Shown piece after piece: positions 2,027-42,284 of a stretch of DNA of 42,812 nt. Under the pieces are notes generated by a model that had not been told where the DNA came from, did not search any database, and saw only the letters and a list, made by a program, of their open reading frames with translations. The DNA is from Candidatus Fermentibacterota bacterium (lineage in GTDB: Bacteria; JAFGKV01): assembly GCA_016928395.1 (NCBI GenBank), contig JAFGKV010000016.1, positions 1 to 42,812 of the forward strand, read 5' to 3'. Position 1 is the stretch's first letter; every line of letters begins with the position of its first letter. Made by a program: the position numbers and the translations under genes.

Positions 2027-3511
2027 TCAAAACATGCTGGTGAGCTGGACTTCCAGGCCCTTGAACTCAGGCACCGTCCGGCATGCGCCGCCGGCGCATA
2101 CCTTACCTTGGGGACGCGAGCCGAGTATGACGCGAAGCTGATGTCCTCGCACGATGTCGACGATTCCCTGCAGGTAGAACCACGCGGTCTCATCTTCAAA
2201 CACCGGGAGCCACGGGAGGTCGCGCTGCATGGCTGAAACATTGGAAAACTCCGCAACCGCGGCAATGGAGATTCCCGGGGAACGGGACGCTTCGATCTCG
2301 ATGTGCTCCAGATCGAATGCGCCCACGGCATCACCGTCGGTATGCTGATGCTCCACTGAGACCCTCCCACTCCATGGATCCTGCACGGGAAAAGTCACCT
2401 CAGCGATGAAGGTCACATGCTCGCGGCGGTCATCCACCGGCCCTGAGGTGGTGAGTGCAGGCCCTAGAAACTCCTCAGTCCATGCGGCCGCCACGGTCAC
2501 CGGCGTGGATGAGAGCTCGGCGATACGAGCCTCCGCCATGGCCTCACTGAAGAGCCGTTTTGCATCGAAGAGACGGTCAGAATCGTGATTCTCAGTCAGT
2601 GAGAATGCCCCGCTGAGCCCCACGAGTCCGCTTGGCTGCCACTCCAGCTGTGCAAGGCCGCCTCGCTCGTCGTCAGCATTGAGGTCACGGGAGTGGCGAG
2701 CCAGGAGCGACCAGCGATGCTCTACTGAGGCCGGGGGCGGCGTCGTGTACTCCTTACCCTCGGCACCCACGCCCATGTGGCGATAGTCCTTGTACTCAAG
2801 CCCGAGTGCCGCTCCGGGCACGGATGCGCCGATGGAGGCAAAAAGCCCCCTCCCCCCCTCCGGTGCGCTGGACTTGGATCGCCGCCCTCCCTCCACGAAG
2901 ATATCGACGGGTCCGGCAGTGACCCTCATCCGGCCGGTTCCCAGTTCAAGATCCGGGGAGTTGTATCCTGTGGACGAGGTCTGGCGGCGGGAGAGATAGC
3001 TGCCGCCGGCCTCTATGCCCAGGGGGAGACGTAGATCGCCGTCCATGCCGTGCAACACCACAGTCTTCCCCGGCGTCTTTCCGGAAAAGGCCTGGAACGC
3101 GACCGGCCCGTGTTCCAGGTTGAGGTCAACCCCATCCAGAGAGTTGTCCACCCGGAGATCACGGTCCTCGTACCCGTGAAAAGCCATGCCCCGGCCAAAC
3201 AATTCATAGAAGTTGCCCACCCACAGCGAACCCCAGGTGGTGGTCCCGCCCACGGCGCGGAATACCTGACCTTCCCGGTCGCGCTGTTCCTCGGATGGTT
3301 GAAACACCTCGTACCGCAGCCGCGCCCGGAAGGAGCCGTGGCTGTAGTCGGCATCGAAGTAGTCTTCCAGAATCTCCTGGTTGGTTTCACTACTCAGTGA
3401 GTAGCGAAGGCTGTTGCCGATGCTGATTGATCCATCGGCTGATGCCGCCGATGGCATCAGGATGCACAACCCTGCCGCCAGGCCGACCGATAGCCTTACC
3501 GGCCGTCGCAT
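2027..3511 (-). CDS. Outer-membrane beta-barrel protein, DUF6029-like
   Basis: A 494-residue protein with a signal peptide (MRRPVRLSVGLAAGLCILMPSAASA). The remainder has alternating hydrophobic/polar strands and ends in an aromatic residue (TSMF), as outer-membrane barrels do. The segment GNFYELFGRGMAFHGYEDRD followed by a VDNSLDGV strand is typical of the DUF6029 family seen in Bacteroidota and relatives. It is the last gene of a four-gene operon: its start overlaps the tlpA-like gene by 16 bp and has only a weak GGGGAA ribosome site, so translation is probably coupled. Function is unknown. Being next to two thioredoxin-fold proteins and a Cys-rich secreted protein suggests a role in assembly or passage of that protein across the outer membrane (inference). 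Confidence 0.7.
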   Translation of the reverse strand: MRRPVRLSVGLAAGLCILMPSAASADGSISIGNSLRYSLSSETNQEILEDYFDADYSHGSFRARLRYEVFQPSEEQRDREGQVFRAVGGTTTWGSLWVGNFYELFGRGMAFHGYEDRDLRVDNSLDGVDLNLEHGPVAFQAFSGKTPGKTVVLHGMDGDLRLPLGIEAGGSYLSRRQTSSTGYNSPDLELGTGRMRVTAGPVDIFVEGGRRSKSSAPEGGRGLFASIGASVPGAALGLEYKDYRHMGVGAEGKEYTTPPPASVEHRWSLLARHSRDLNADDERGGLAQLEWQPSGLVGLSGAFSLTENHDSDRLFDAKRLFSEAMAEARIAELSSTPVTVAAAWTEEFLGPALTTSGPVDDRREHVTFIAEVTFPVQDPWSGRVSVEHQHTDGDAVGAFDLEHIEIEASRSPGISIAAVAEFSNVSAMQRDLPWLPVFEDETAWFYLQGIVDIVRGHQLRVILGSRPQGKVCAGGACRTVPEFKGLEVQLTSMF

Positions 3512-3987
3512 TCGGTTTCCCCGAGCAACGTGAGAAGCCGCACCCTCAGCTCCCTCTCATCTCCCGGTTTGTAGCCCAGGTGGGAATAGACGATGGTACC
3601 GCTGGTGTCCACGATGCAGGTATAGGGCAGGTTGGCGATCTTGTACCGTCGCATGACCTCGTTGTCAGTATCCATCAGGATAGGGAACGTAAGCTTGCGG
3701 CCTTGTACAAACCCGGGCACCCTTGATACGGTCTTGGGCGAGTCGGCGCACATGCCGATCACGGTGACTCCGCGGTCCGCGAACTCCTCGCTCAAGGCCT
3801 GAAGATGCGGTAAAGCCTTCACGCATGGCCCGCACCAGGTTGCCCAGAAGTCCAATACTAAGGGTCCGTCCTTGATGAGCTCCTCCAGGCAGACCTTCTG
3901 GCGCGACAGATCAGGGAGACAGAACGACGGAGCATCATCCGCCGCTGCTGAAGAGACGGCAATGAGTAAGGCTGCCAGGATGATCAT
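3496..3987 (-). CDS. TlpA-family periplasmic thiol-disulfide oxidoreductase
   Basis: A 163-residue protein with a short signal peptide (MIILAALLIAVSSAAA) and a thioredoxin fold. The active site WCGPC lies at residues 51-55, preceded by VLDFWAT, and the cis-proline loop is NLPYTCIVD. WCGPC with a TlpA-like insertion (GVTVIGMCADSPKTV) indicates a membrane-near or periplasmic reductase of the TlpA/ResA type. The ATG at 3987 was chosen because it overlaps the upstream stop as ATGA and begins the signal peptide; the longer reading frame adds 38 residues that are antisense-like and carry no signal. Two extra cysteines at residues 23 and 33 could be structural. It probably reduces or isomerises disulfides of its operon partners. 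Confidence 0.85.
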   Translation of the reverse strand: MIILAALLIAVSSAAADDAPSFCLPDLSRQKVCLEELIKDGPLVLDFWATWCGPCVKALPHLQALSEEFADRGVTVIGMCADSPKTVSRVPGFVQGRKLTFPILMDTDNEVMRRYKIANLPYTCIVDTSGTIVYSHLGYKPGDERELRVRLLTLLGETECDGR

Positions 3988-5294
3988 TTGGTTCCCTCCA
4001 GGATAATCAGCGGGTGCGCGGAACAGGCTGAGGGTGTATGCACGCGGACCACGTAGGTTCCTTGCGAAACGTCTGGAAGCGTCAGCAGAGGGGCTGGCCA
4101 CGGGCCGTCGAACAAGCCGCAGACTGCGCGGCCCGACAGATCTGCCAGCAGGATGCGGACGGGACTGCCCGCGGGGATCCCAAGACTTACGGCCAGGATG
4201 CCCCGGGAGGGGTTGGGTCCGAGACTGACCATCAAGGGCGCAGCCGGCTGCGCAACATCGCCGGACACGTCGCCATCAAGCCAGCTGAGGAAGAAGTCCA
4301 GCGATTCCTCCAGCACGGTCGAGTCGGCGCAGGCCTCGATGCCGAAACCACAGGCGAGGCTCCTCCGCCCGTCCTGTCCGATCCTGCCCACCGCAGCGAT
4401 TTCGCCACTCTCGTACCGAAGCGCACGAACCGCCAGGCCCTCGGGGCTGAGCGCATCGGGGGAGGTCTGGTTGTCTGCCCCGTCACCGCCGGCGATATCG
4501 AATGAGATCAGGTCAAAGACGGTGCCTGCTACGCCCCGCACGTGTCGAGACTCGACCGAGGTCGATTGCACGCTGGCTCCCAACTCATCCTGCCCGAACG
4601 CGGCGCCTACCTCCCCTTCTAGTGCGTTCTGTCCTGAAAGCAGCAGCTTACCGCCGTCCTGCAGCAGTGCGGTCATGACCTCGGCCTCGTCCTCGGTGAT
4701 GCAGCCCGCTGACGCGCTCCCGGTAATCCAGACGATGCGCTCCAGCAATGCCACATCAGACAGTGCCAGGGGTTCGAGGCTTTGATCCCATGTCAGGAAG
4801 ACCCGATTGCCGGGTATCGACCGCTCCACGAAGCGTTGACTGTCCCCTTCCCCGTCGTCGTCCACCAGAAGCGACTCGACGCCTGAGAAGATCTCCAATC
4901 GGACACTGTCCGCCCGTGCGGCGTTGGCGTATCGAAACCAGTACACGCCCTTGCCCGCCGTGTCGAACGGATAGAAGGAGAGATGGACCTCCAGCTGGGC
5001 TCCGGGAGGAAGTTCCACTGAGAAGTCCATGTCGGATGGAAAGCACGACACGCCGATGCATACGCCCGGCGGCAGCCAGGCTTCCGGCTGGCTCGTCACC
5101 AAGGCACACTGAACGTTCAAGGTGGATGTTCCAGTATTGGCCATCTCGCCGAAGAGCCCCACCTCGACCCCGGTCTGGCTCGTGAGTTCTCCCACGCAGG
5201 CGTGTCGATCCATGGCGACATGCACATCGGCGGCGGCCGCGGCGACAAGAAGACCTACAAAGGCCATCATTGCTCGGACTGCTGTGTTACGCAT
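3984..5294 (-). CDS. Cys-rich secreted protein with alpha/beta domain and sorting-domain-like C-terminus
   Basis: A 436-residue protein. The ATG at 5294 follows a strong site (GGAGGAAAGG) and opens a signal peptide, MRNTAVRAMMAFVGLLVAAAAA. The mature part begins with an Ig-like module (about 25-150) in which W, C and C are spaced as in PEAWLPPGVCIGVSC, a pattern familiar from secreted Bacteroidota proteins encoded beside Omp28 genes. An alpha/beta domain follows (LLVDDDGEGD, VWITGSA, LLLSGQNAL). The last ~80 residues (GPNPSRG, ILLADLSGRAV, GTYVVRV) look like a shortened FlgD/T9SS sorting domain. Nine cysteines in the mature chain make disulfides likely, consistent with the thioredoxin-fold neighbours. 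No catalytic motif is recognised. It lies 35 bp downstream of the Omp28-like gene and overlaps tlpA by 4 bp. Confidence 0.75.
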   Translation of the reverse strand: MRNTAVRAMMAFVGLLVAAAAADVHVAMDRHACVGELTSQTGVEVGLFGEMANTGTSTLNVQCALVTSQPEAWLPPGVCIGVSCFPSDMDFSVELPPGAQLEVHLSFYPFDTAGKGVYWFRYANAARADSVRLEIFSGVESLLVDDDGEGDSQRFVERSIPGNRVFLTWDQSLEPLALSDVALLERIVWITGSASAGCITEDEAEVMTALLQDGGKLLLSGQNALEGEVGAAFGQDELGASVQSTSVESRHVRGVAGTVFDLISFDIAGGDGADNQTSPDALSPEGLAVRALRYESGEIAAVGRIGQDGRRSLACGFGIEACADSTVLEESLDFFLSWLDGDVSGDVAQPAAPLMVSLGPNPSRGILAVSLGIPAGSPVRILLADLSGRAVCGLFDGPWPAPLLTLPDVSQGTYVVRVHTPSACSAHPLIILEGTK

Positions 5295-5329
5295 CCTTTC
5301 CTCCGGGTTACTGCTACACCATATCGTCG

Positions 5330-6460
5330 CTATTGAAGCTGATGCACGGCAAGCCCAACCGTACCGGGCATGCCCGGTTTTCGCGCATGGGCTACCAACG
5401 TGATACTCTCCCCCTCGGATCTCCAGGCCAGGGTGGCGGCCCATACCCTCAACTCGGGGTCGGTCCCGAGAATGACGTCTTCGCCACACGCTTCAGGCAG
5501 TACTCCCCGCACCACATGACGGAAGTCCGTCTCGCCGTTGTTGCCTGGCGCGGTTTCAAACTCCTCATGATCATCGCAGACAAACACAGTCAGCACACAC
5601 GGCCCGGGAACCTCCGCCACTGCACTCACGGAACAGGTCAAGGCGGCGCCATCCAGCCACGCACCCAGGGTCAAAGCAACCTTCTCGAGAGCAATCGTTT
5701 CCCCGATCGCTTCTTCCACCACGTCACGACTCGTGGGCTGAAGGGCTTCCGTGCCTTCGACCACCAGCCATGGCACCTGCCCTACCCCATACAAGGTCAT
5801 GCGGGCATCCATCAGCGCGCGCTGGGCCAGATAGAAAGGATCCAGAGGGCTGGGAAAATTGGTGTGAAACTCCAGAAGCACCACCCGCTGGGGTCCAAGG
5901 TCATCCACGAGCCTGTACAGCATCGGATTGACCTCGGCACAGGGCATGCACCCTGTGTTCGTGAAGCTCTCCAGTAGGGTCACACGGCCAGTCTCTGACA
6001 CCAGATCAAAATGCGCGGAGGAGACGACTCCCGGACTCACGTTCACCTGAAGGGAACACGGCATCGGCTGGTACCCTCCCCGCTCAACGTTGATCCAGTG
6101 CAGGCCGGTCGAGATGTCCCAAAGGGTATCCGGAGTGACACGTCCCGTGGGGTCTCGATCCAGAAAAATGGCCGCAGAGTCAGGCGAACTGGAGACGGCA
6201 ATGGACCCGGTGTCTACGGGAGGCGAAATGGTGGGATCCTTCTGACCGCACCCCACGACCATCAGCGAAACAACCAGAGCAACGCCGTGTCTGAATGAAA
6301 AAACCCCGGTGATCGAAAAACGCCTTAGCGTCGCATGGCGCGGCGTTCGCGTAATCTTGGCATTGCGCCCGATGGGCTGCAGGAGTGATCTTGAACGGCC
6401 GTGCGATCTAACCACGCACCCCCGGCTGCCATTTCGCACGGCTATGGGCTGACTCAACAC
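5330..6460 (-). CDS. Omp28-like thioredoxin-fold lipoprotein with PEGA domain
   Basis: A hydrophobic stretch ends in a lipobox (LMVVGC), so the mature protein is probably a lipoprotein. It continues with a PEGA-like beta-sandwich (GSIAVSSSPDSAAIFLDRD through AHFDL) and then an Omp28/thioredoxin-like domain with a CxxC motif in NTGCMPCAEVNP, followed by VVLLEFHTNFPSPLDPF. Start choice: a GTG at 6460 (or the adjacent TTG at 6457) follows GAGGAG at good spacing. This leaves an unusually long, basic N-terminal tail of about 65 residues before the signal segment, so a later alternative start remains possible. It is first gene of the operon and diverges from the membrane-protein gene at 6515, with about 50 bp between them. 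Probable role: envelope thiol redox or a binding partner for the secreted protein. Confidence 0.75.
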   Translation of the reverse strand: MLSQPIAVRNGSRGCVVRSHGRSRSLLQPIGRNAKITRTPRHATLRRFSITGVFSFRHGVALVVSLMVVGCGQKDPTISPPVDTGSIAVSSSPDSAAIFLDRDPTGRVTPDTLWDISTGLHWINVERGGYQPMPCSLQVNVSPGVVSSAHFDLVSETGRVTLLESFTNTGCMPCAEVNPMLYRLVDDLGPQRVVLLEFHTNFPSPLDPFYLAQRALMDARMTLYGVGQVPWLVVEGTEALQPTSRDVVEEAIGETIALEKVALTLGAWLDGAALTCSVSAVAEVPGPCVLTVFVCDDHEEFETAPGNNGETDFRHVVRGVLPEACGEDVILGTDPELRVWAATLAWRSEGESITLVAHARKPGMPGTVGLAVHQLQ

Positions 6461-6514
6461 ACTCTCTCCTCGGGATGGGAAGCGAAAATCGGGTGAGTTA
6501 CAAGGAAGATGCAA

Positions 6515-8851
6515 ATGGCAACTAGCGGCCAGGGAGGCCAGGCGTCAACTGAGAAACGCGTTGGGCGGTCCGTGACGCCGCACCCGGCATTCATGACCCT
6601 CGCGATAGTTATCGTGCTTCTCGGCGCATCGGCCGCGTCACTGGCCCTCCGGCCGATGTTGAACTACGATATCTGGAGGAATCTCACCGTCGGCCAGTGG
6701 ATTGTCGAGAACGGGCGTGTTCCCCATGAGGAGGTGTTCACCTTCACTGAAAGGGGCAGGCCCTGGATTGACTATGAGTGGCTCTCCGAGCTAGTCTTCT
6801 ATGGCGTGCATCAAATCGGCGGGTATGCCGGGTTGGTCGCGTACGAGGCAGTGTTGGTGTGGGTGACGGGGGCGGGGCTACTGCTGTTGTTCCTCGCCAG
6901 ATCCCACGGGTCGCCTTGGGTACTGGTTTTGGCCGCTGTGCCCGCCTTCGTTCTATCCGAATTCCACATTCTGGTCAGGCCCCATCTGCACTCCATGGCA
7001 TTGGCGCCGCTGTTCCTGTGGTGGGTGTGGCGGCCGAGACAATGGAGAGCTGTCGGTGTCGCCGTTCTCTTCTGCCTGTGGGCAAATCTCCATTCGGGCA
7101 CACTTGGTGTTCTTCTGCTGGTCCTCTCTCTGCTGGGCGGTATTCCACGGACCGGACGCGTTCGGACTGTGGTAGCCGCGGGAGTCGGCCTCCTGGTCAA
7201 TCCGTATTCGTGGCGTATCGTGCTACCCTTGGTGCGGGTGCTGAGCGCCCAGGCCCCGGGCGGCGTGCAGGTCACGGAGTGGATGCCCCTGCCCTTCGAT
7301 GAGATGCGGGGCTTCTGGGCGTATTTGGTTTTCTCCCTGTTGCTTCTGTGCGTTCCCGGCAGATCGCACAGGCGCTGGGATACGGTGATGCTTGTGACCT
7401 TTGGCGCGCTGAGCATGAAGGCGGTCAGGATGGTGCCGTTCTTGGCCCTTATGGCAGTCCCCGGCAATGCCGAGGCATTGGGATGCCTGGCGGGCCACCG
7501 GTGGACGCGTTACTCCCGATGGATCGGGGCCGTTGCCGCCGTTGCGGCAACTACCGTCCTCGTTGCCAGGCATATGCCCCTCTCACTCCATCCAGACCCC
7601 CGGGCCTGCCCTGAGGCTGCAGCCTCCTACCTCCTTGACCGCAATCTCGACATACGGTGCTACAATGATATCCACCAGGGCGCATATCTGATGTGGCGAT
7701 GGTTTCCCCGGCTCGTCTACTCCGACAATCGCACTGAGCTGTTCGGCGATGTAGCATCGGCTGAGCGGGCCGCCTGCGGCGATGTTCTCAGTTTTAAGGT
7801 GTTTCTGGAGAGCTACGGCATACGCGGAGCCGTGCTGGACTACCCGTGGAAGATGGACGACACTGAAACCGCAACCTTCTACCCCCTCTTCCGATTCCTC
7901 GGCTGGCACACGGTAGCCTGGGACGACGGAGGCGCTCTGCTGCTGGCACCGGGTACTGACAATGACAGCATCATCGCCGCCGATGCCTTTCACGTGCTCG
8001 ATCCTTTCGTGGTAGATCCCCCCTTCAATGGCTTATCGTCCCAAGAGCGTGAGCTTCTGCTCGCCGAGGCCCGCCGCGCTCGTCGGAGTACCTCCAGATC
8101 ATCGCGGGCCTGGGAGATTTGGGGCAACATTGCCTCCAGCGCCAACCGTCCTGCTACAGCCTTAGCGGCATTTGACACCGTGGCGGCGCTCAACCGCAGA
8201 GATGTCAACGTGCACGCACGAAGAGCATTGGCCCTCGAGAAGCTAGGGAAGCATGACGCCGCGGCCCGGGAATGGAAGCGGCAGGCGTCCCGAAAGCTCG
8301 ATCTCCCCCTGGTCTGGTTCAATTTGGGGCGGCTGGCGCTGGTGAATGCCCAGCCGAAGCAGGCTGAGTCGTGGTTACGCAAGGCAGTTCGGGCAAAGGC
8401 CGATGAGAGATCATGGCGTGATCTGCTGGCCTTCGCTCGTTCGGCCACCGCAGCGCAGCTGTCGCAGCAACAGGCGGGCCTTCGGTCGAGTGCGGCATCG
8501 CGAGAACGCGAAGCCATGAGATCGATGGGCCGGGGCGAATGGGAGCTGGCAGAGAGAACCCTGCGGGAGGCTATCTCCCTCGTTCCGTCGGTTCCGACCT
8601 TTCATCAGAACTTGGGTGCGAGTCTGGCCAGCCAGGAGCTCTGGGAGGAGGCCGAGGCCGAACTCAGAGAAGCATTGCTGTTGGATTCCAATCTGGGATG
8701 GGCGCGGTACAATCTGGCCGGGCTCCTCGCCACGGCCCGGGGCGACACCGTCGGCGCAGTGAGAGAGTTACAAGCCCTTGCGGCATCCGGGCCGGACTCG
8801 GCCCTTTCCGATCTTGCCCAGGCATATCTTCGCGAGATCGGAGGGCCATAG
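6515..8851 (+). CDS. Polytopic membrane protein with C-terminal TPR repeats (GT-C-like)
   Basis: About 778 residues. After a first transmembrane helix comes a loop with DIWRNLTVGQWIVENGRVP and then WIDYEWLSEL, followed by eight or more further hydrophobic helices to about residue 340. This layout resembles GT-C glycosyltransferases such as oligosaccharyl or dolichyl-mannose transferases. Residues ~340-500 form a soluble domain (YNDIHQGAYLMWRWFP, DNRTELFG), and residues ~520-770 contain TPR-like repeats (WFNLGRLAL, FHQNLGASLA, ARYNLAGLLA). The second ATG (6515) is preferred because AAGGA lies 8 bases upstream; the ATG at 6509 is too close. Catalytic residues are not certain, so glycosyl transfer from a lipid carrier is an inference from topology only. 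Confidence 0.7.
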   Translation: MATSGQGGQASTEKRVGRSVTPHPAFMTLAIVIVLLGASAASLALRPMLNYDIWRNLTVGQWIVENGRVPHEEVFTFTERGRPWIDYEWLSELVFYGVHQIGGYAGLVAYEAVLVWVTGAGLLLLFLARSHGSPWVLVLAAVPAFVLSEFHILVRPHLHSMALAPLFLWWVWRPRQWRAVGVAVLFCLWANLHSGTLGVLLLVLSLLGGIPRTGRVRTVVAAGVGLLVNPYSWRIVLPLVRVLSAQAPGGVQVTEWMPLPFDEMRGFWAYLVFSLLLLCVPGRSHRRWDTVMLVTFGALSMKAVRMVPFLALMAVPGNAEALGCLAGHRWTRYSRWIGAVAAVAATTVLVARHMPLSLHPDPRACPEAAASYLLDRNLDIRCYNDIHQGAYLMWRWFPRLVYSDNRTELFGDVASAERAACGDVLSFKVFLESYGIRGAVLDYPWKMDDTETATFYPLFRFLGWHTVAWDDGGALLLAPGTDNDSIIAADAFHVLDPFVVDPPFNGLSSQERELLLAEARRARRSTSRSSRAWEIWGNIASSANRPATALAAFDTVAALNRRDVNVHARRALALEKLGKHDAAAREWKRQASRKLDLPLVWFNLGRLALVNAQPKQAESWLRKAVRAKADERSWRDLLAFARSATAAQLSQQQAGLRSSAASREREAMRSMGRGEWELAERTLREAISLVPSVPTFHQNLGASLASQELWEEAEAELREALLLDSNLGWARYNLAGLLATARGDTVGAVRELQALAASGPDSALSDLAQAYLREIGGP

Positions 8852-13666: not shown

Positions 13667-14253
13667 GAATCACCTGCCGCGAGCTTCATCATCTGGTAGG
13701 CCCATCCGTCTCTTCGTCGATGGGGATACGGACGGCGCAGTCTTCGCTCCCACTCTTCGTCATGAAAAACGCGGAAACCGAGCTTCTCATGGAGCGCAAT
13801 GGCAGGAGCGTTGCCGCGATGAACCACCATAAAGAGATCGGCCCCGGGCTCCCGCGCTCTCCATGCATCCACAACTCGCCGCACCAACCGGGTACCGACG
13901 GCACGGCCACGCCATCGGGGTGCGACGTCTAATCCTGTCAACCACCACCCAGGTATCCCCACGTCCGGCCGTTGCCACTGCCGGAATATCGACACATGGC
14001 CAACGATCGTCCCGTGCCATATGGCCACGGCGCAGTATGTGCCCTCACCCGGGAGGCGGAGCGTGCCGCGGGGTGCCTGAAGGTAGTCTTCCCAGGAGGT
14101 CAGGGAATCCTGGCTCAGCATGTCAATGACAGGTTCCTCTGCCGTGGGCGCTCCCAGAAGGAGCCGGCCTAGCCTGTAGTGGCAGGCACGGCCGATGAGA
14201 ACACGCCCAACTCGCCACAGTATTGAGCGGTAGTGACCGAAGGCCGAGGGCAT
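13663..14253 (-). CDS. GNAT-family N-acetyltransferase
   Basis: A 196-residue protein whose C-terminal two-thirds form a GNAT domain: the beta4 strand WLTGLDVAPRW, the acetyl-CoA pyrophosphate loop RGRAVGTRLV (R/Q-x-x-G-x-G/A type), and the motif B segment NAPAIALHEKLGFRVF. It transfers an acetyl group from acetyl-CoA to an unknown amine. The ATG at 14253 follows GGAGG at 7-8 bases. It overlaps the following GT4 gene by 4 bases, so the acceptor could be an amino sugar of the same glycan pathway (inference). It diverges from the membrane-protein gene starting at 14315. Confidence 0.85.
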   Translation of the reverse strand: MPSAFGHYRSILWRVGRVLIGRACHYRLGRLLLGAPTAEEPVIDMLSQDSLTSWEDYLQAPRGTLRLPGEGTYCAVAIWHGTIVGHVSIFRQWQRPDVGIPGWWLTGLDVAPRWRGRAVGTRLVRRVVDAWRAREPGADLFMVVHRGNAPAIALHEKLGFRVFHDEEWERRLRRPYPHRRRDGWAYQMMKLAAGDS

Positions 14254-14314
14254 GGCAAATCCTCCGGATGCATGGTATCCTTGCCGGGTCGATTCACGGA
14301 ATCAGGAGAATCTC

Positions 14315-16423
14315 GTGTCGAGCAAGAAACCCCCACACACCTTGTGGTGCAAACCAACAGTCGTAGCAGCGGCTACTGCGATTGTGGCGCTGGGTATCGC
14401 GCTGATCTGGTCATTCCCCCTGGTTCTGGCGCCTGCTGAGCTCTTGCTGGGCCATCCGGGCGATGCCTTGTCGACCCTGCAACGGTGGGAAAGCTGGCAG
14501 CCTTCCCTGCGGTACGTGGAGCGACCATTGCTCAACATCTCGGGCCGCGCTTTGGCCGATCTCGTGGGGTCAGTGACCGCCTATAATACCCTCGTTCTTA
14601 TCAGTTTCCCCTTGACTGCATTGGCGGCATTCGGCCTCATCTTCCGTATCGTGCCCCATTCCCCCTCGGCAATGATCGGCGCCCTGGCATTCACGATCTC
14701 CCCGTTCCACTGGGCGCACAGCCTCGGCCACCTCTACGAGGCGCATATCCAGTGGATTCCACTGGTTGCATGGAGCCTGCTGACAACTGTCGCGCATCCC
14801 AGTCTCCTGAGGATGGCTGGCCTTATCGCTGCCAGTGCTCTTCTAGTCGCTTCGAGCTTCTACTACGGTTTCTTCGCGGCAGTGGTGGCGCTGCCAATCG
14901 TGGTCTTGTGGACGCTTTCTCTGCTGGCGAGGAGACGCGCCCGGCGACTGGCGGCGGTCCTTCTGGCGACCGTGGGAGCCTTCCTTGCCTCTCTGCCCAT
15001 AACGTATTCGTACCTCACGTGGCTAACCCGTACTCGTCGCCCATCGTCGCGACATTTCGAGGACCTCTTTCGCTACTCAGCCCGGTTGCAGGAGTACGTG
15101 TGTCCGGGGGCGTTCTCCGCCCTGCGCCGCCTTCTGTCGCCCGCAACCACGCCAGGATCCCTGCACTTCTCCAACGAGGTCGAGCAATCTCTCTTTCTCG
15201 GATGGGTGGTGCTGACTCTGGCTGCCATTGGGGTGGGAAGCATGCTCATCCGCCGAAGGCCCTCCATCCGACGGGGAGAGCTTGCCGTGATGTTGGCGGC
15301 AGGAGTGGCGGCGACCCTGTGTTCGGCTCCTCCCATTGTCCGCATAGACGGCTGGTCCATTCGTATGCCCTCTTTTTACTTAGGGAGCCTGGTCCCGTTC
15401 TTCCGGACCTATGCGCGCATGGGCGTCTTCGTGCACCTGTCGGTCTGCTGTGCGGCTGCCGCGGGAGCGGAATTGCTGGCTCGTCGCCGAGCTGCATCCT
15501 TGTGTGCCGTTGCCGTGCTGCTCATTGCCGCCGAGTACACGCCGATACCGCCGCCACGTACCGTGCGTCTTCTGCCCTTGCGAGGTGCGCATAGGTGGTT
15601 AGCCCAGCAATCTGACGGGATGTTGGTGCTGGAGTATCCTATGGATCGCCGCATCACGCCCCGCACTTCGGTTCGATCCTGGGTGAGCCGCATCACGGCT
15701 CGGTACAGCATGGAAGAGAACGCCTCCATGGATCTGCGCCACGTGGCCGGTCTGGGTCCACTGGAGTGTTGGGATCTGGCGGTAAGCGGCGTTGGTTATG
15801 TTCTGTTTCATGATCGCAATCCCGATCCGTCGCTCCAGGTGCACAAAGACCGGCCCGACCGCGGCCCCAATGTGCCCGGAACCTGGCCCGCCGTACCCGC
15901 GCATGACGCGCTCACTCTTGTGGCGCATTTCCCCGAGACTGTCCTGTTCTCAGTGCGGGACGTCCAGGCATCGGTGTCATTGTCGCCCGGCGAAGGCCTT
16001 GCTCCATGGCGGGAGGGACCGAACGTCATCGGGAGACCCTTCGTGGCCACTTCTCATCATGTGATGCTGCGGAACGCAACGCAATGGCCTGTGAAGATTG
16101 GCCTGGACATGCAGGTAGTCCCTACCGCTCCTCTCCGGGAGCTGCGGCTTCTGCTCAACGGCGTGCCGGCAGGGGCCTACCCGGCTGCGGACACGATTCG
16201 AATCGCGTTGCGTGATCTCGAGGTCTTGCCCGACCGTAACCACCTCCGTCTTGAAGGGGTGGGAAAGCACGGCGTGCTTCCCGCCAACACGGGACAGGTC
16301 GGGCTTCTCCTCGGCGTCAGGATCACGGATGAGGCGCCCGCTCGCGGGACATCTGGCCGATGGCTCTCGGCCCCCCAATCCTCTGCGCCCGGAGACACCA
16401 CACACACCCACTGGCTAGAATGA
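14315..16423 (+). CDS. Large polytopic membrane protein, GT-C/YfhO-like, with C-terminal soluble domain
   Basis: About 702 residues. GTG at 14315 is preferred over the ATG at 14252 because AGGAG precedes it at 6 bases and the longer form would overlap the GNAT start. About ten to eleven hydrophobic helices span residues 15-430. The first external loop contains HPGDALSTLQRWESW, and a later one reads PFFRTYARMGVFVHLSV, a pattern seen in YfhO-like and other GT-C membrane glycosyltransferases. The C-terminal ~250 residues are soluble and beta-rich. No family assignment is certain. Its place beside GNAT and GT4 genes suggests glycan or lipid-linked sugar transfer at the outer face of the inner membrane (inference). 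Confidence 0.65.
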   Translation: MSSKKPPHTLWCKPTVVAAATAIVALGIALIWSFPLVLAPAELLLGHPGDALSTLQRWESWQPSLRYVERPLLNISGRALADLVGSVTAYNTLVLISFPLTALAAFGLIFRIVPHSPSAMIGALAFTISPFHWAHSLGHLYEAHIQWIPLVAWSLLTTVAHPSLLRMAGLIAASALLVASSFYYGFFAAVVALPIVVLWTLSLLARRRARRLAAVLLATVGAFLASLPITYSYLTWLTRTRRPSSRHFEDLFRYSARLQEYVCPGAFSALRRLLSPATTPGSLHFSNEVEQSLFLGWVVLTLAAIGVGSMLIRRRPSIRRGELAVMLAAGVAATLCSAPPIVRIDGWSIRMPSFYLGSLVPFFRTYARMGVFVHLSVCCAAAAGAELLARRRAASLCAVAVLLIAAEYTPIPPPRTVRLLPLRGAHRWLAQQSDGMLVLEYPMDRRITPRTSVRSWVSRITARYSMEENASMDLRHVAGLGPLECWDLAVSGVGYVLFHDRNPDPSLQVHKDRPDRGPNVPGTWPAVPAHDALTLVAHFPETVLFSVRDVQASVSLSPGEGLAPWREGPNVIGRPFVATSHHVMLRNATQWPVKIGLDMQVVPTAPLRELRLLLNGVPAGAYPAADTIRIALRDLEVLPDRNHLRLEGVGKHGVLPANTGQVGLLLGVRITDEAPARGTSGRWLSAPQSSAPGDTTHTHWLE

Positions 16424-37845: not shown

Positions 37846-38219
37846 TGAGGTCACTTCACTTTCCCTCACGAATACGGATGCCAAAGGAACGCTCATGAAC
37901 GGCAGAAAACCCTCCCCGCGCAAGAGCATTGGTCGGCGTGATCGACCGGAGGATCGCGCGACGCTGGGTCTCGGGAGTTGCCGTGCCTCCCCTTTCGCAC
38001 CTCCACGTCTTCATGATTAGCCCATTTGCCGTTTCGCAGTCTGAGCCTATCGCCCTTGATATGCGCGAAAACCTCTCGATGGCGTGCCAATCACGCCCCA
38101 TTCCCTTCCTTGAATCCAGTTGTCCTTTGCGGTTGTGCAGGTGAGGGCAACGATGCAACTTGTCAATGCGATGCTCTTCCGGAGACCCTTCGACCCATGT
38201 AACTCACAAGGATGCCCCC
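37846..38219. other. 374-base divergent intergenic region
   Basis: It lies between the patatin gene and the M14 peptidase gene and should contain both promoters. No consensus pair is convincing. Minus-strand short frames here show weak HicA-like resemblance across frames, which I do not accept as a gene. Confidence 0.5.
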
Positions 38220-40673
38220 ATGATCGCCGTTGCCTTGCTGCTGAGCCTTCTCACCGTCTCCCCTGATCCCTATCAGCAAGCTCTCCTGCCGACACCTGCC
38301 CGTGCGGACATTGACCGACTCCTTGCCCTGGGCGTCGAGGTCAAGCCCACTGATAGCCCCGCCTACCTGCGGATCATCGGGCGCGCATCGGAACTCGTCG
38401 AGGCCGAGGACATGGGGTTCCCCATGGAGATTGAGATTGTAGACCTCGAAGCATGGGCAAGCTCGCAGATGAGCGGACGGGGAGACTTCGGTGCGTACTA
38501 CACGTATGCCGAGGCCGTCACCAGAATGAATGAGCTGAACGCCCTGTACCCCTCGCTGGTCACCGCGCCGCAGTCGCTTGGGCTCTCAGGGCAGGGCAAC
38601 GCCATCTGGGCGATGAAGGTCTCGGACAACCCAGCAGTCGACGAAGATGAGCCTGCCATCCTGTTCACCGGCGTGCATCACGCCCGGGAACCCATAGGCT
38701 GTACCCTGTGTCTCGACTTCATCGAGTACCTGGCATCCGGCTACGGCACCGATCCTCTATGCACCTTTCTCGTGAATCAGCGGGAGTTCTGGTTTGTCCC
38801 GGTCGTGAATCCAGACGGGTATCTCTACAATGAGAGTACCAATCCCAATGGCGGCGGCATGTGGCGCAAGAACCGGCGAACCAATGGCGACGGTTCCTAC
38901 GGCGTTGACTTGAACCGCAACTATCCATATCAGTGGGGCTACGACAACAGCGGATCCAGCCCAACCCCCTCGTCGGACACCTACCGCGGCCCATCGGCCG
39001 GCTCCGAACCAGAAGTCCAGGTCATGATGGCCTTCTGCCAGGCGCAGGGCTTCACTGCGGCCCAGAACTGGCACAGCTATTCCAATCTGCTGCTCTACTC
39101 ATGGGGCTACGATGATTTCCTCACCCCCGATGACGACGCCTTCGACACCCAGGCCGCGGACGCCACCATGGGTATTGGGTATTCGACGGGCACAGCCTGG
39201 GAGCTCCTGTACAACACCAATGGCGATGCCAATGATTGGATGTACGGCGACCCGGCCAAACCGAAGGTGTTCGCATGCACCGGTGAAGTAGGTGAAGACT
39301 TCTGGCAGGAATCCCAGATCCCGGTGCACATCGCGGAGGGCAGGCAAATCTCAACGGTGCAGTCACTCTATGCAGGGCCACTGCCGGAATCAGGCGGCAT
39401 TACCGTTGATGACGCGGCGGCAAACAACAACACACGCCTCGATCCCGGCGAGACCGCCTCACTGCTGGTTTCCCTGTATAACAAGGGTTTCCATGGGAGC
39501 CCAGCCGTTACGGCCACGGTGGCCTGTGACGATCCTTACCTGCAGATCTCTCCTGCCCAGATCACTTTTACCCCTTTCCCTGCGCTGACGCTGGTGCAGG
39601 GTTCACCTGGTGTCGAGGTTACAGTCGATCCTGCCTGTCCCATGGGGTGGGCGGGATCCTGCCACCTGATCGTCGAGGGTCAATGGGTACGGCCCGATAC
39701 CATCGCCGTTCCCCTGACCGTGGGCAGGCCCACCATTCTGGTAGTCGATGCCGACAATGAGCCGACGGAGACACGGCTGATCGACGCTCTGGGCCGAGCT
39801 CCCATCGCCTTTGACACGTGGTATGAACCGGGTAATCCCGTGACCCTCGATCTGCTCCGGTTATACCGTGCAGTGATATGGACCGCCGGCGACCAGAACG
39901 TCTCGTCGATCCCGACGGCAGACCGTCAGGCGTTGAGCGCCTACCTCGATTTGGGCGGAGCCCTGCTCCTCTCTGCCGAGAACTATCTTAGTGCTTATGG
40001 CTCAGACCCATTCACATCCCAGTATCTCCATGTCAGCTCCTACACAACCAGCATCAGCGTATCCTCGGTGCAGGGAATGGCCACAGATCCCGTGACCGAC
40101 GGGATAGCCATGAACGTGTCCTTCCCAGGAGGCCTGAGCAATGCCCCCGACGCGGTTGTGCCCGACGCGCAAGCCACGGGGATTCTCCGGTACAATAACG
40201 GGAGCGCGTATACTGCGATTCGGTATCCCGCCACGGGTTCGTCTACGTTCAGGGTGATCTTCACCGCCACACCCCTGGAGGCCATGCTGCCCCCAACAAC
40301 GGCGCTGGAGGAGACACTCGAATCCATGGTGTCATGGCTGCTATTGTCGTCGGACACAAGCCCACCATCGGCCCCCATCTCTCTGACTGCACAGGCAGGG
40401 CCAGGCCCGGGTCAGGCGACGCTTACGTGGACGCCATCATCCGACAATGTCGGCGTGGCCCACTATCGCATCTACGAAAGCGCTCAGTCCGTCCCGGCAC
40501 CCGTGGGGGCGCTTCTGCTGGACGTGGCGGCTGCGTCCCCGTTTGTGCGAACCATCCCGGCGCCAGAGCCGGGTAGGGCCTTCTGGGCCGTAAGCGCCGT
40601 GGATGCGGGAGGCAATGAAAGCGGCCCGTCGCCGGCTTCGGGTTCGATGGTGTTCACGTTGGGCGCGCCCTGA
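38220..40673 (+). CDS. Secreted M14 zinc carboxypeptidase with C-terminal FN3 domain
   Basis: An 817-residue protein with a signal peptide (MIAVALLLSLLTVS...), a propeptide and a carboxypeptidase-T-like M14 domain (about 90-385). Zinc ligands are H154 and E157 (HAREP) and H285 (QNWHSY). The substrate-binding LNRNYPY segment and the catalytic Glu of TGEVG (E356) are present, so it should be active on extracellular peptides. Then follow a beta-rich module (about 390-500), an alpha/beta domain starting ILVVDADNEP (about 506-715) and a final FN3 domain. It lacks the FlgD-like sorting tail of the peptidase at the left edge. ATG 38220 has AAGGA at eight bases. Its 3' end overlaps the next gene antisense by 190 bases. 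Confidence 0.92.
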   Translation: MIAVALLLSLLTVSPDPYQQALLPTPARADIDRLLALGVEVKPTDSPAYLRIIGRASELVEAEDMGFPMEIEIVDLEAWASSQMSGRGDFGAYYTYAEAVTRMNELNALYPSLVTAPQSLGLSGQGNAIWAMKVSDNPAVDEDEPAILFTGVHHAREPIGCTLCLDFIEYLASGYGTDPLCTFLVNQREFWFVPVVNPDGYLYNESTNPNGGGMWRKNRRTNGDGSYGVDLNRNYPYQWGYDNSGSSPTPSSDTYRGPSAGSEPEVQVMMAFCQAQGFTAAQNWHSYSNLLLYSWGYDDFLTPDDDAFDTQAADATMGIGYSTGTAWELLYNTNGDANDWMYGDPAKPKVFACTGEVGEDFWQESQIPVHIAEGRQISTVQSLYAGPLPESGGITVDDAAANNNTRLDPGETASLLVSLYNKGFHGSPAVTATVACDDPYLQISPAQITFTPFPALTLVQGSPGVEVTVDPACPMGWAGSCHLIVEGQWVRPDTIAVPLTVGRPTILVVDADNEPTETRLIDALGRAPIAFDTWYEPGNPVTLDLLRLYRAVIWTAGDQNVSSIPTADRQALSAYLDLGGALLLSAENYLSAYGSDPFTSQYLHVSSYTTSISVSSVQGMATDPVTDGIAMNVSFPGGLSNAPDAVVPDAQATGILRYNNGSAYTAIRYPATGSSTFRVIFTATPLEAMLPPTTALEETLESMVSWLLLSSDTSPPSAPISLTAQAGPGPGQATLTWTPSSDNVGVAHYRIYESAQSVPAPVGALLLDVAAASPFVRTIPAPEPGRAFWAVSAVDAGGNESGPSPASGSMVFTLGAP

Positions 40674-41227
40674 TCGCCTGGGGTCTTAAGAAACGGCCCC
40701 GGGGCTGCCCACAGAGGATCGGTCGCCACCTGCCGCCACGCGTCGCCCGCAAGATGCACGAGATCAATATGGTCCACCTGGATGGGATGAGTGGAGGCGG
40801 TGAACACCCGCAGCCAGATCCCTCGATCAGACGATCCTGAAGGCATGATGGTGGCCGCAGTCACGAACTCAGGCCCCAGTTCCCTTGGTTGCAGCGCCAT
40901 CTGCTGAGCGGCTTCATCCCAACCGAAACCCCATAGATCGAGTTCCAGTGGGGCATCAGCCTCCTCTGACCGGGCGCGAACACTGAGCGTCAGCGATCCA
41001 TCCGCCGGCAAGGGCGGCAGAAGCAGCATGGCCAGCGAAGGCGTGCCCACCACCACAGACTGAAGCACAAGCACACCCCCTTCCATGGCGCAGCCCTCCA
41101 GTCTCCACGACCCTCGGGAGTCCATGCCGTCCCGTACCAACACCATCCCTTCCGCCACAGGGCGGTGGCATCCTGCGCAAAGGAGGATGACCACGGAGGA
41201 GAGCACGCGTGCGACGAGAAGCGACAT
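40484..41227 (-). CDS. Lipoprotein of unknown function, 3' end antisense to the M14 gene
   Basis: A 247-residue reading frame beginning MSLLVARVLSSVVILLCAGC, a clear lipoprotein signal with lipobox LCAGC. The next ~165 residues read like a beta-sandwich, possibly carbohydrate-binding or jelly-roll (SRGSWRLEGCAMEGGVLVLQ, SLTLSVRARSEEADAPLELD, GIWLRVFTASTHPIQVDHID). The last ~63 codons overlap the FN3-coding end of the M14 gene on the opposite strand and look like low-complexity read-through. The ATG at 41227 is fixed by the signal peptide; the longer frame lacks one. It diverges from the lipoprotein gene at 41322 and may work with it. Confidence 0.7.
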   Translation of the reverse strand: MSLLVARVLSSVVILLCAGCHRPVAEGMVLVRDGMDSRGSWRLEGCAMEGGVLVLQSVVVGTPSLAMLLLPPLPADGSLTLSVRARSEEADAPLELDLWGFGWDEAAQQMALQPRELGPEFVTAATIMPSGSSDRGIWLRVFTASTHPIQVDHIDLVHLAGDAWRQVATDPLWAAPGPFLKTPGDQGAPNVNTIEPEAGDGPLSLPPASTALTAQKALPGSGAGMVRTNGDAAATSSRSAPTGAGTD

Positions 41228-41263
41228 TCGATGCTCCAATGCGAGGGAAACAGATGGATGGCG

Positions 41264-41292
41264 TTGTTCCGGATGCATGCCGCTCTTACATT
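41264..41292 (+). promoter_or_regulatory. Predicted promoter of the sulfatase-like lipoprotein gene
   Basis: TTGTTC (41264-41269), 17 bases, TACATT (41287-41292), 30 bases before the GTG start, in the 94-base divergent region. Confidence 0.5.
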
Positions 41293-41321
41293 GGACGAAA
41301 CCGTCTGTCAAGGAGTCCTTC

Positions 41322-42284
41322 GTGCGCGTCGTCCTTTCCCTCGCTCTTGCCGTGGTGCTGGCTGGCTGCTCCGACAACCCGCCTGTGGTCATCCTCATGT
41401 CGGTCGATGGCCCTTCCTCGTGGCCCACGAGGTACCTCCTGGGAGGTACCGAGACCTGGGCGATGGTCGGTCATTCCGATTCACTTCCCGATCTCATTGC
41501 CGGTATACACGAGGGCTTCCTCCGGCCCTGGTCCTTTGGGACCTCCGGCGGCATGCGAGGCCAGGGATCACTCCTCACCTTGGCAGCCCGGGAAGGATGG
41601 TCCACCGCAGTGTTTGCCTCGGTCTCGACGGATGTGCGGCCCGCGCTTGAACGTCTGTCCAACTCGGCGTCAGACGCCAGGATCCGGCCGGCGGGCCTGT
41701 CCAACTGGCCGCTCCTGGCCAATGACGTGGTCCTGTGGGCGGCATCCCACGACGCGCCACGCTTCGCAACCGTTCATCTCTCGGTGACGGATCCGCCGAC
41801 ACCTGAGGCGATGAGTGCGGTGGTTCAGATGTGGGCGCGCATCGACGACCTCATCCGCGGCACGGGTGATTCGTCGGCCCTTCTGGCGGTCTATCTCGCC
41901 GATGCCCCCCCCGGTGATTCCATGGCGCGTCTGCGCGTGGTGGGTTCGGTGCCTGGGGCGACGGCGATGCGTGACACCTGGCTCTCTACGTTGGATGTGG
42001 CGCCGACCGTTGCCTCCGTCTTAAACGTGCTCTACACACCGGACTATCTCGGTCAGTCCCTGGCGGCGTTGTCGAGTGGGCAACGGTCCGAGCCGGTGGT
42101 ATTCACGAGGGGCACCACGCGCATGGTCATGGGAAGCCGTTGGATGGTCGTGGCCGACGAATTCGAAGACGACGCACTGCCCTCCAGGGTTCGCTTTGTT
42201 GATCTCTGGCGGGGCGAGTTCAGTGCCTCAGGAACCCGCTCGCCCGAGGCACTGAAGCTGCTGGAACACCTGCCTCATCGGTAA
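41322..42284 (+). CDS. Lipoprotein resembling a degenerate sulfatase/alkaline-phosphatase-superfamily protein
   Basis: A 320-residue protein. GTG 41322 has AAGGAG at the right distance and opens a lipoprotein signal with lipobox (VVLSLALAVVLAGC). PPVVILMSVDGPSSW resembles the first strand of sulfatases (N-V-V-L-I-S-I-D), and WLSTLDVAPTVASVLNVLYT followed by YLGQSLAAL matches their late D-x-APT-x-x-x-L-G segment. The nucleophile (Cys/Ser in CxPSR) and most metal-binding His/Asp residues are not visible, and the protein is shorter than usual, so it is probably non-catalytic or a binding relative. This assignment is tentative. Confidence 0.6.
   Translation: MRVVLSLALAVVLAGCSDNPPVVILMSVDGPSSWPTRYLLGGTETWAMVGHSDSLPDLIAGIHEGFLRPWSFGTSGGMRGQGSLLTLAAREGWSTAVFASVSTDVRPALERLSNSASDARIRPAGLSNWPLLANDVVLWAASHDAPRFATVHLSVTDPPTPEAMSAVVQMWARIDDLIRGTGDSSALLAVYLADAPPGDSMARLRVVGSVPGATAMRDTWLSTLDVAPTVASVLNVLYTPDYLGQSLAALSSGQRSEPVVFTRGTTRMVMGSRWMVVADEFEDDALPSRVRFVDLWRGEFSASGTRSPEALKLLEHLPHR

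Follow-up and report, generated by a model that had tools for sequence, protein, structure and literature searches.

The envelope thiol pathways built from DsbD or CcdA together with TlpA, ResA or CcmG lead from the cytoplasm to the periplasm, where they end. Disulfide-dependent assembly of an outer-membrane barrel is exemplified by LptD, the cysteines of which are served by the periplasmic thiol enzyme DsbC. Thioredoxins are also found on the cell surface, where such proteins, HBP35 among them, have been described since 2010, and we know of no electron source for them outside the outer membrane. HBP35 of Porphyromonas gingivalis reaches the surface through the type IX secretion system (T9SS) and reduces insulin in vitro by means of two cysteines; its authors left unexplained what the thioredoxin domain does physiologically and suggested that it maintains the redox state of the cell surface (PMC2907840, PMC3120885). 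The protein also binds hemin and is required for growth under hemin depletion (PMC2907840). HBP35-type surface thioredoxins of Muribaculaceae are treated in a 2026 preprint that mentions neither DUF6029 nor a barrel (PMC13404670).

The operon described here lies in the window, the whole stretch of 42 812 nucleotides that was analysed, and resembles each of these systems in part. With the DsbD/CcdA pathways it shares a TlpA/ResA-type thioredoxin with a WCxPC site and, in 23 of the 24 DUF6029-containing genomes tested, a DsbD-type protein, but its thioredoxin is tied, and in some loci even fused, to an outer-membrane barrel. As with LptD and DsbC, the cysteines of a barrel appear to be served by a periplasmic thiol enzyme, although LptD belongs to another barrel family, has more cysteines and is neither encoded with nor fused to its enzyme. 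Gene 1 has the thioredoxin and beta domains of HBP35 (Z 23.6) and its CxxC, but carries an added PEGA domain and a lipobox and lacks a sorting tail; no report linking HBP35 to a barrel was found in the literature searched. Bona fide Omp28 (PF11551) genes adjoin DUF6029 in Bacteroidota. The FimD and PapC ushers, which are 24-stranded pores, have the closest solved fold to the model of gene 4, yet gene 4 shares only ~10% identity with them, lacks the plug and the N- and C-terminal periplasmic or chaperone-binding domains and has other partners. No description of a module of DUF6029 and a thioredoxin was found in the literature searched, outside which most subscription journals lie, and of the publications retrieved on DUF6029 (PF19494), or on Omp28 with a thioredoxin, a single one was relevant (PMC9603273). 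The analysis points to an undescribed system for disulfide handling that operates at the outer membrane and may reach across it. The reading preferred here, with a probability of about 0.4, is that the operon encodes an outer-membrane thiol–disulfide module in which TlpA serves the cysteine pair of the barrel, with electrons perhaps passing onward to surface thioredoxins.

The four-gene operon recognized in the initial annotation, with intergenic gaps of 35, -4 and -16 bp, was confirmed in its coordinates and lies on the minus strand. Its features are the following.

5330..6460, minus strand: gene 1, lipoprotein (lipobox Cys71) combining a PEGA domain with a thioredoxin fold of the Omp28/HBP35 type
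5950-5939, minus strand: CxxC of gene 1 (C171-C174), invariant in 23/23
3984..5294, minus strand: gene 2, exported nine-cysteine protein with an Ig-like N-terminal part, a middle domain and a weak T9SS-type sorting tail
5060-5043, minus strand: W73-x5-C79-x4-C84 of gene 2, invariant
3496..3987, minus strand: gene 3 (tlpA), TlpA/ResA-type periplasmic thioredoxin with a signal peptide
3834-3823, minus strand: active site WCGPC of gene 3 (C52, C55)
2027..3511, minus strand: gene 4, DUF6029 outer-membrane beta-barrel, ~24 strands predicted
2081..2098, minus strand: C-A-G-G-A-C of gene 4 (C472-C477), forming a tight hairpin between the last two strands (23 and 24)

The lineage of the window is represented by three available genomes, all of which contain DUF6029. 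Its nearest named relatives are Candidatus Eisenbacteria Prado127 (locus L051, same genus) and Candidatus Fermentibacteria CSMAG_2897 (L063, same family), and in both the gene order is identical to that of the window operon. A divergent membrane protein with TPR repeats (window 6509-8851, plus strand) also adjoins the module in a same-genus relative (L019 1-952). In the Fermentibacteria relative the DUF6029 gene extends over two frames (L020 7423-8845; same place in L063), reflecting a frameshift or an assembly error.

Gene 4 matched DUF6029 over model positions 50-538 of 538 (E 6e-28, 98.2 bits against a cut-off of 27) and is a member of the family, as had been noted from the sequence alone. 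An AlphaFold model calculated for gene 4 with 50 related sequences is a confident barrel (mean pLDDT 91.5, pTM 0.87) that takes up nearly all of the 494 residues; 24 main strands were counted, and short turns alternate with long loops, the pattern expected of an outer-membrane barrel. The best solved fold matches were FimD (3ohn; Z 19.8, rmsd 4.3, 361 residues) and PapC, with 18-strand porins fitting less well (rmsd ~6), while no solved structure was found by sequence at E 1. The key feature of the barrel, absent from the initial annotation, is a cysteine pair of its own: C472 and C477 are the only two cysteines of the mature window barrel. Since the number of strands is even and the termini are periplasmic, the loop joining strand 23 to strand 24 would face outwards, and C-x4-C is thus predicted to occupy the last extracellular loop. 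Residues 467-482 of this loop form the most conserved segment of DUF6029 (mean 3.27 bits, against 1.86 for the whole protein). The motif is present in all complete barrels examined and missing from one of 125 loci, in which the barrel is truncated. Among loci found without selecting for the motif it occurs in 11 of 11 and in 68 of 69, the exception again being truncated. A further 45 loci were found by scanning with patterns from a four-sequence DUF6029 alignment (a ten-sequence alignment held no stretch conserved enough); the second of these patterns includes C-x4-C, so that invariance is tested by the HMM-found loci and not by this set. In 88 of 121 barrels there is no cysteine other than this pair.

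The immediate partner of the barrel is a thioredoxin. Gene 3 matches the AhpC-TSA (E 3e-26, 92 bits) and ResA families in Pfam and NCBIfam, has the WCGPC motif and a hydrophobic N-terminus serving as an export signal, and retrieved ResA (4nmu, E 3e-20) among solved structures, in agreement with its original identification as TlpA. A DUF6029 profile search of 60 related genomes returned 11 loci besides that of the window, and in all 11 the TlpA gene either immediately precedes that of the barrel, in the same orientation, or is fused to it; L020, with its frameshifted barrel gene, is among these and was scored by hand. DUF6029 is present in 80 of 296 sampled Bacteroidota genomes, and TlpA lies no more than 400 bp away or is fused in 59 of 69 Bacteroidota loci; two of the remaining ten have TlpA within 1.4 kb and one ends at a contig end. 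The commensal Bacteroides stercorirosoris DSM 26884 (L078) is among the carriers of the module. In the 45-locus set, drawn from other named genomes (KSB1, Neomarinimicrobiota, Fibrobacterota, Calditrichota, Zixibacteria, Gemmatimonadota, Acidobacteriota, Eisenbacteria, Krumholzibacteriota, Bacteroidota and Planctomycetota), TlpA adjoins or is fused to DUF6029 in 38, and three of the seven exceptions are cut by contig ends. Among the 81 loci that span 9 kb or more, 60 TlpA genes were observed within 400 bp of DUF6029 where 0.64 were expected from the background beyond 2 kb (~94-fold). The genome of the window agrees with this, its AhpC/TSA-family genes numbering just five. Chance falls far short of explaining the arrangement. 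The initial annotation had suggested a comparison of DUF6029 neighbours across genomes, and for TlpA the co-occurrence proved to be conserved in about ten phyla; rather than a general porin unlinked to thiol proteins, the barrel represents a family of its own that is tied to them.

In 18 loci of a tree of 123 barrels, TlpA and DUF6029 are fused in a single reading frame, always with TlpA first, which places the TlpA part in the periplasm. The fused state requires five changes on this tree, at least four of them forced by well supported branches, and one of the five is a probable artefact caused by a truncated fused gene scored as unfused (L066). Fused rows fall in a Krumholzibacteriota/Fibrobacter clade, at L027, the placement of which is uncertain owing to its long branch, and at L087 among Bacteroidota, so that the fusion has roughly three separate origins. 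Such repeated fusion strongly indicates that TlpA and DUF6029 are a functional pair. The fusion of L049, from a record titled Verrucomicrobia bacterium B12_G4, is nearly identical in the tree to that of a Krumholzibacteriia record (L048 7425-9371), and its label is doubtful.

In the module proposed here, a dedicated TlpA is encoded with a large outer-membrane barrel bearing an invariant C-x4-C, or else is joined to that barrel at its N-terminal, periplasmic end. This first step draws on the pairing, the fusions, the invariant cysteines and a recurrent second thioredoxin-fold protein, all observed in the loci, together with the predicted extracellular place of the pair. As a second step, TlpA would exchange disulfides with C-x4-C, which is likely: the barrel usually has no other cysteine, making action on this pair the most economical explanation. 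We infer a redox-active, not a structural, role for the pair. Two considerations count against the proposal, namely that hairpin disulfides may be purely structural and that the pair is predicted to be extracellular whereas TlpA is periplasmic.

TlpA would probably be kept reduced by an inner-membrane DsbD/CcdA protein. The DsbD-type transmembrane domain (DsbD_TM) was found in 23 of 24 DUF6029 genomes, including that of the window, in which it occurs in a frame of 688 residues (C268) and in a shorter, CcdA-like frame (C153). DsbB and VKOR are the known oxidizing membrane enzymes. Each was detected in one of the 24 genomes, both times the Bacteroides genome, and both are absent from the other 23, which, together with the nearly universal DsbD, favours a reducing role; an oxidizing role driven by DsbB or VKOR was set aside for the same absence. 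The window operon alone encodes several cysteine-rich exported proteins, yet the two oxidizing enzymes are lacking in these 23 genomes.

The main rival explanation holds that TlpA is a dedicated folding helper, reducing or isomerizing a single structural disulfide while the barrel is assembled into the outer membrane, much as LptD is served by DsbC in Escherichia coli, with no electrons crossing the membrane and the Omp28-type genes merely co-regulated. One disulfide-capable pair per barrel, a tight hairpin close to the C-terminal assembly signal and a TlpA located upstream or fused N-terminally, in the manner of an in-cis helper, would all fit such a role. A single pair, however, offers nothing to isomerize, and in the fusions the enzyme is permanently held at the barrel. 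While this explanation accounts for the pairing of TlpA with the barrel, it does not account for the recurrence of a second thioredoxin-fold protein with an outward address, and it is considered unlikely.

That second protein is represented in the window by gene 1. The PEGA domain (E 4e-5), the CxxC, the lipobox and the fold originally attributed to it were all recovered, but its assignment to Omp28 missed the sequence cut-offs: NF033782 scored 13.4 bits against a cut-off of 150, NCBIfam matches reached 13-17 bits, PF11551 was not reported, and DUF1223 matched at E 7e-4, below its cut-off. No solved structure was found by sequence at E 1. The model of gene 1, confident for residues 80-376, superposes on HBP35 (5y1a) over 211 residues (158-376) with an rmsd of 2.3, a thioredoxin domain preceding a beta domain, and also resembles the Omp28 domain 2r2c (Z 9.7), which places it structurally in the HBP35/Omp28-like group. 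By sequence gene 1 is a remote Omp28, with which its modelled fold agrees. In gene 1 and 22 relatives the CxxC is invariant and the lipobox cysteine nearly so. The Bacteroidota neighbours of DUF6029 are true PF11551 proteins, and a second CxxC thioredoxin-fold gene, either PF11551 or its kin, lies within 3 kb of DUF6029 in 93 of 125 loci. The constant core of the module across about ten phyla consists of TlpA and the C-x4-C-bearing barrel, and the Omp28-type CxxC protein is its next most frequent component. The 117 Omp28-like reading frames beside DUF6029 include 107 with CxxC, 27 with a T9SS-type sorting tail and 40 with a lipobox, the last count resting on a crude test. In a Bacteroidota clade (L140-L148), DUF6029 with TlpA upstream is accompanied by one or two further TlpA-like genes (GANCPHC-type) in place of Omp28.

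These proteins would provide the third step of the proposed module, in which the barrel would hand reducing equivalents on to proteins with a thioredoxin fold at the outer face, such as the Omp28/HBP35-type CxxC lipoprotein of gene 1, which would then reduce or repair disulfides of surface proteins, gene 2 for example. This step is tentative, at somewhat short of even odds, and its surface placement is weakened by gene 1 being a lipoprotein without a sorting tail. The net effect would be an extension of the DsbD–TlpA reducing pathway across the outer membrane. Such a complete relay, from periplasmic TlpA through the C-x4-C of a 24-strand barrel to surface thioredoxins, is a little more doubtful still, and the modules without an Omp28-type gene count against it. 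With its dedicated thioredoxin and its single invariant cysteine pair, the barrel is a concrete candidate electron source for surface thioredoxins, and the widespread DUF6029 family gains a partner and a probable chemistry. The module belongs with the known envelope thiol pathways; should the relay prove real, the module would represent a system of a new kind, one that provides the cell surface of Bacteroidota and of many candidate phyla with reducing power.

The resemblance of the barrel in size and fold to FimD and PapC, which pass folded subunits, and the presence of CxxC and C-x4-C proteins in operons with DUF6029 might instead suggest an usher-like protein-conducting pore that exports these proteins, with TlpA holding the thiols of the cargo reduced beforehand. 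This is improbable, as DUF6029 lacks usher-like plug and chaperone-binding domains, some modules have no Omp28 to export, and many Omp28 neighbours carry T9SS tails in a group of genomes most of which encode SprA, indicating another export route. This T9SS translocon component was found in 19 of 24 DUF6029 genomes, including that of the window; a role of the module as a T9SS accessory was set aside, SprA being missing from the other five and the link therefore not obligatory.

Among 93 flanking proteins, no other family besides the sorting tail recurred more than three times. The lack of recurring TonB receptors or other uptake genes in this set, as well as the absence of a plug domain from the barrel model, makes uptake of a metal or of heme, in which surface thiols would reduce the ligand or release it, very improbable, even though HBP35 binds hemin and is needed under hemin depletion (PMC2907840) and the copper transporter OprC is among the Foldseek matches. 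Least probable of all is a polysaccharide export porin, a role put forward on the basis of the HHpred similarity of Wzi-type barrels (PMC9603273) and echoed by the alginate exporter AlgE among the fold matches, since the barrel has ~24 strands, not 18, OPX, polymerase and other polysaccharide-export families are all missing from the 25 families most often seen in the 93 neighbours, and the TlpA linkage and invariant cysteines would be left unexplained.

Gene 2 has no Pfam or NCBIfam match above cut-off. The nine-cysteine exported protein described initially does contain the motif attributed to it, as W-x5-C-x4-C in the Ig-like N-terminal part, invariant among its relatives. Its C-terminal two thirds have a general secreted architecture found in 18 more places in the same genome; the sorting domain TIGR04183 reaches 14 bits against a cut-off of 23, and the genome has SprA. 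Gene 2 is found only in a subset of loci (the phylum of the window, Eisenbacteria, Krumholzibacteriota and similar loci), which, with the wide distribution of its C-terminal architecture, makes it an optional part. Hence, of the co-occurrence anticipated for the other partners, that of the Omp28-type gene was borne out and that of the W-x5-C-x4-C protein only in this subset; likewise, a thiol module of the outer membrane linked to DUF6029 is strongly supported, and the notion of its being dedicated to the cysteine-rich protein as client is not. An M14 zinc carboxypeptidase (window 38160-40673, plus strand) has the same middle domain as gene 2, and two long reading frames (14252-16423 and 41085-42284, plus strand) have no Pfam match at E 0.001.

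Thioredoxin-like genes near the module in L025 (10011-12389, plus strand) and L027 (near 4743, minus strand) have a stop codon at the first active-site cysteine, the interrupted sites reading WESW-stop-TYC and FAASW-stop-GPC, respectively; judging from these sequences, selenocysteine is likely. In the genome of the window, an AhpC/TSA-family gene (G000:C260:18730-19128) is open only through one TGA and probably encodes a selenoprotein, and in L023 (10190-11557) selA, encoding selenocysteine synthase, lies directly downstream of DUF6029.
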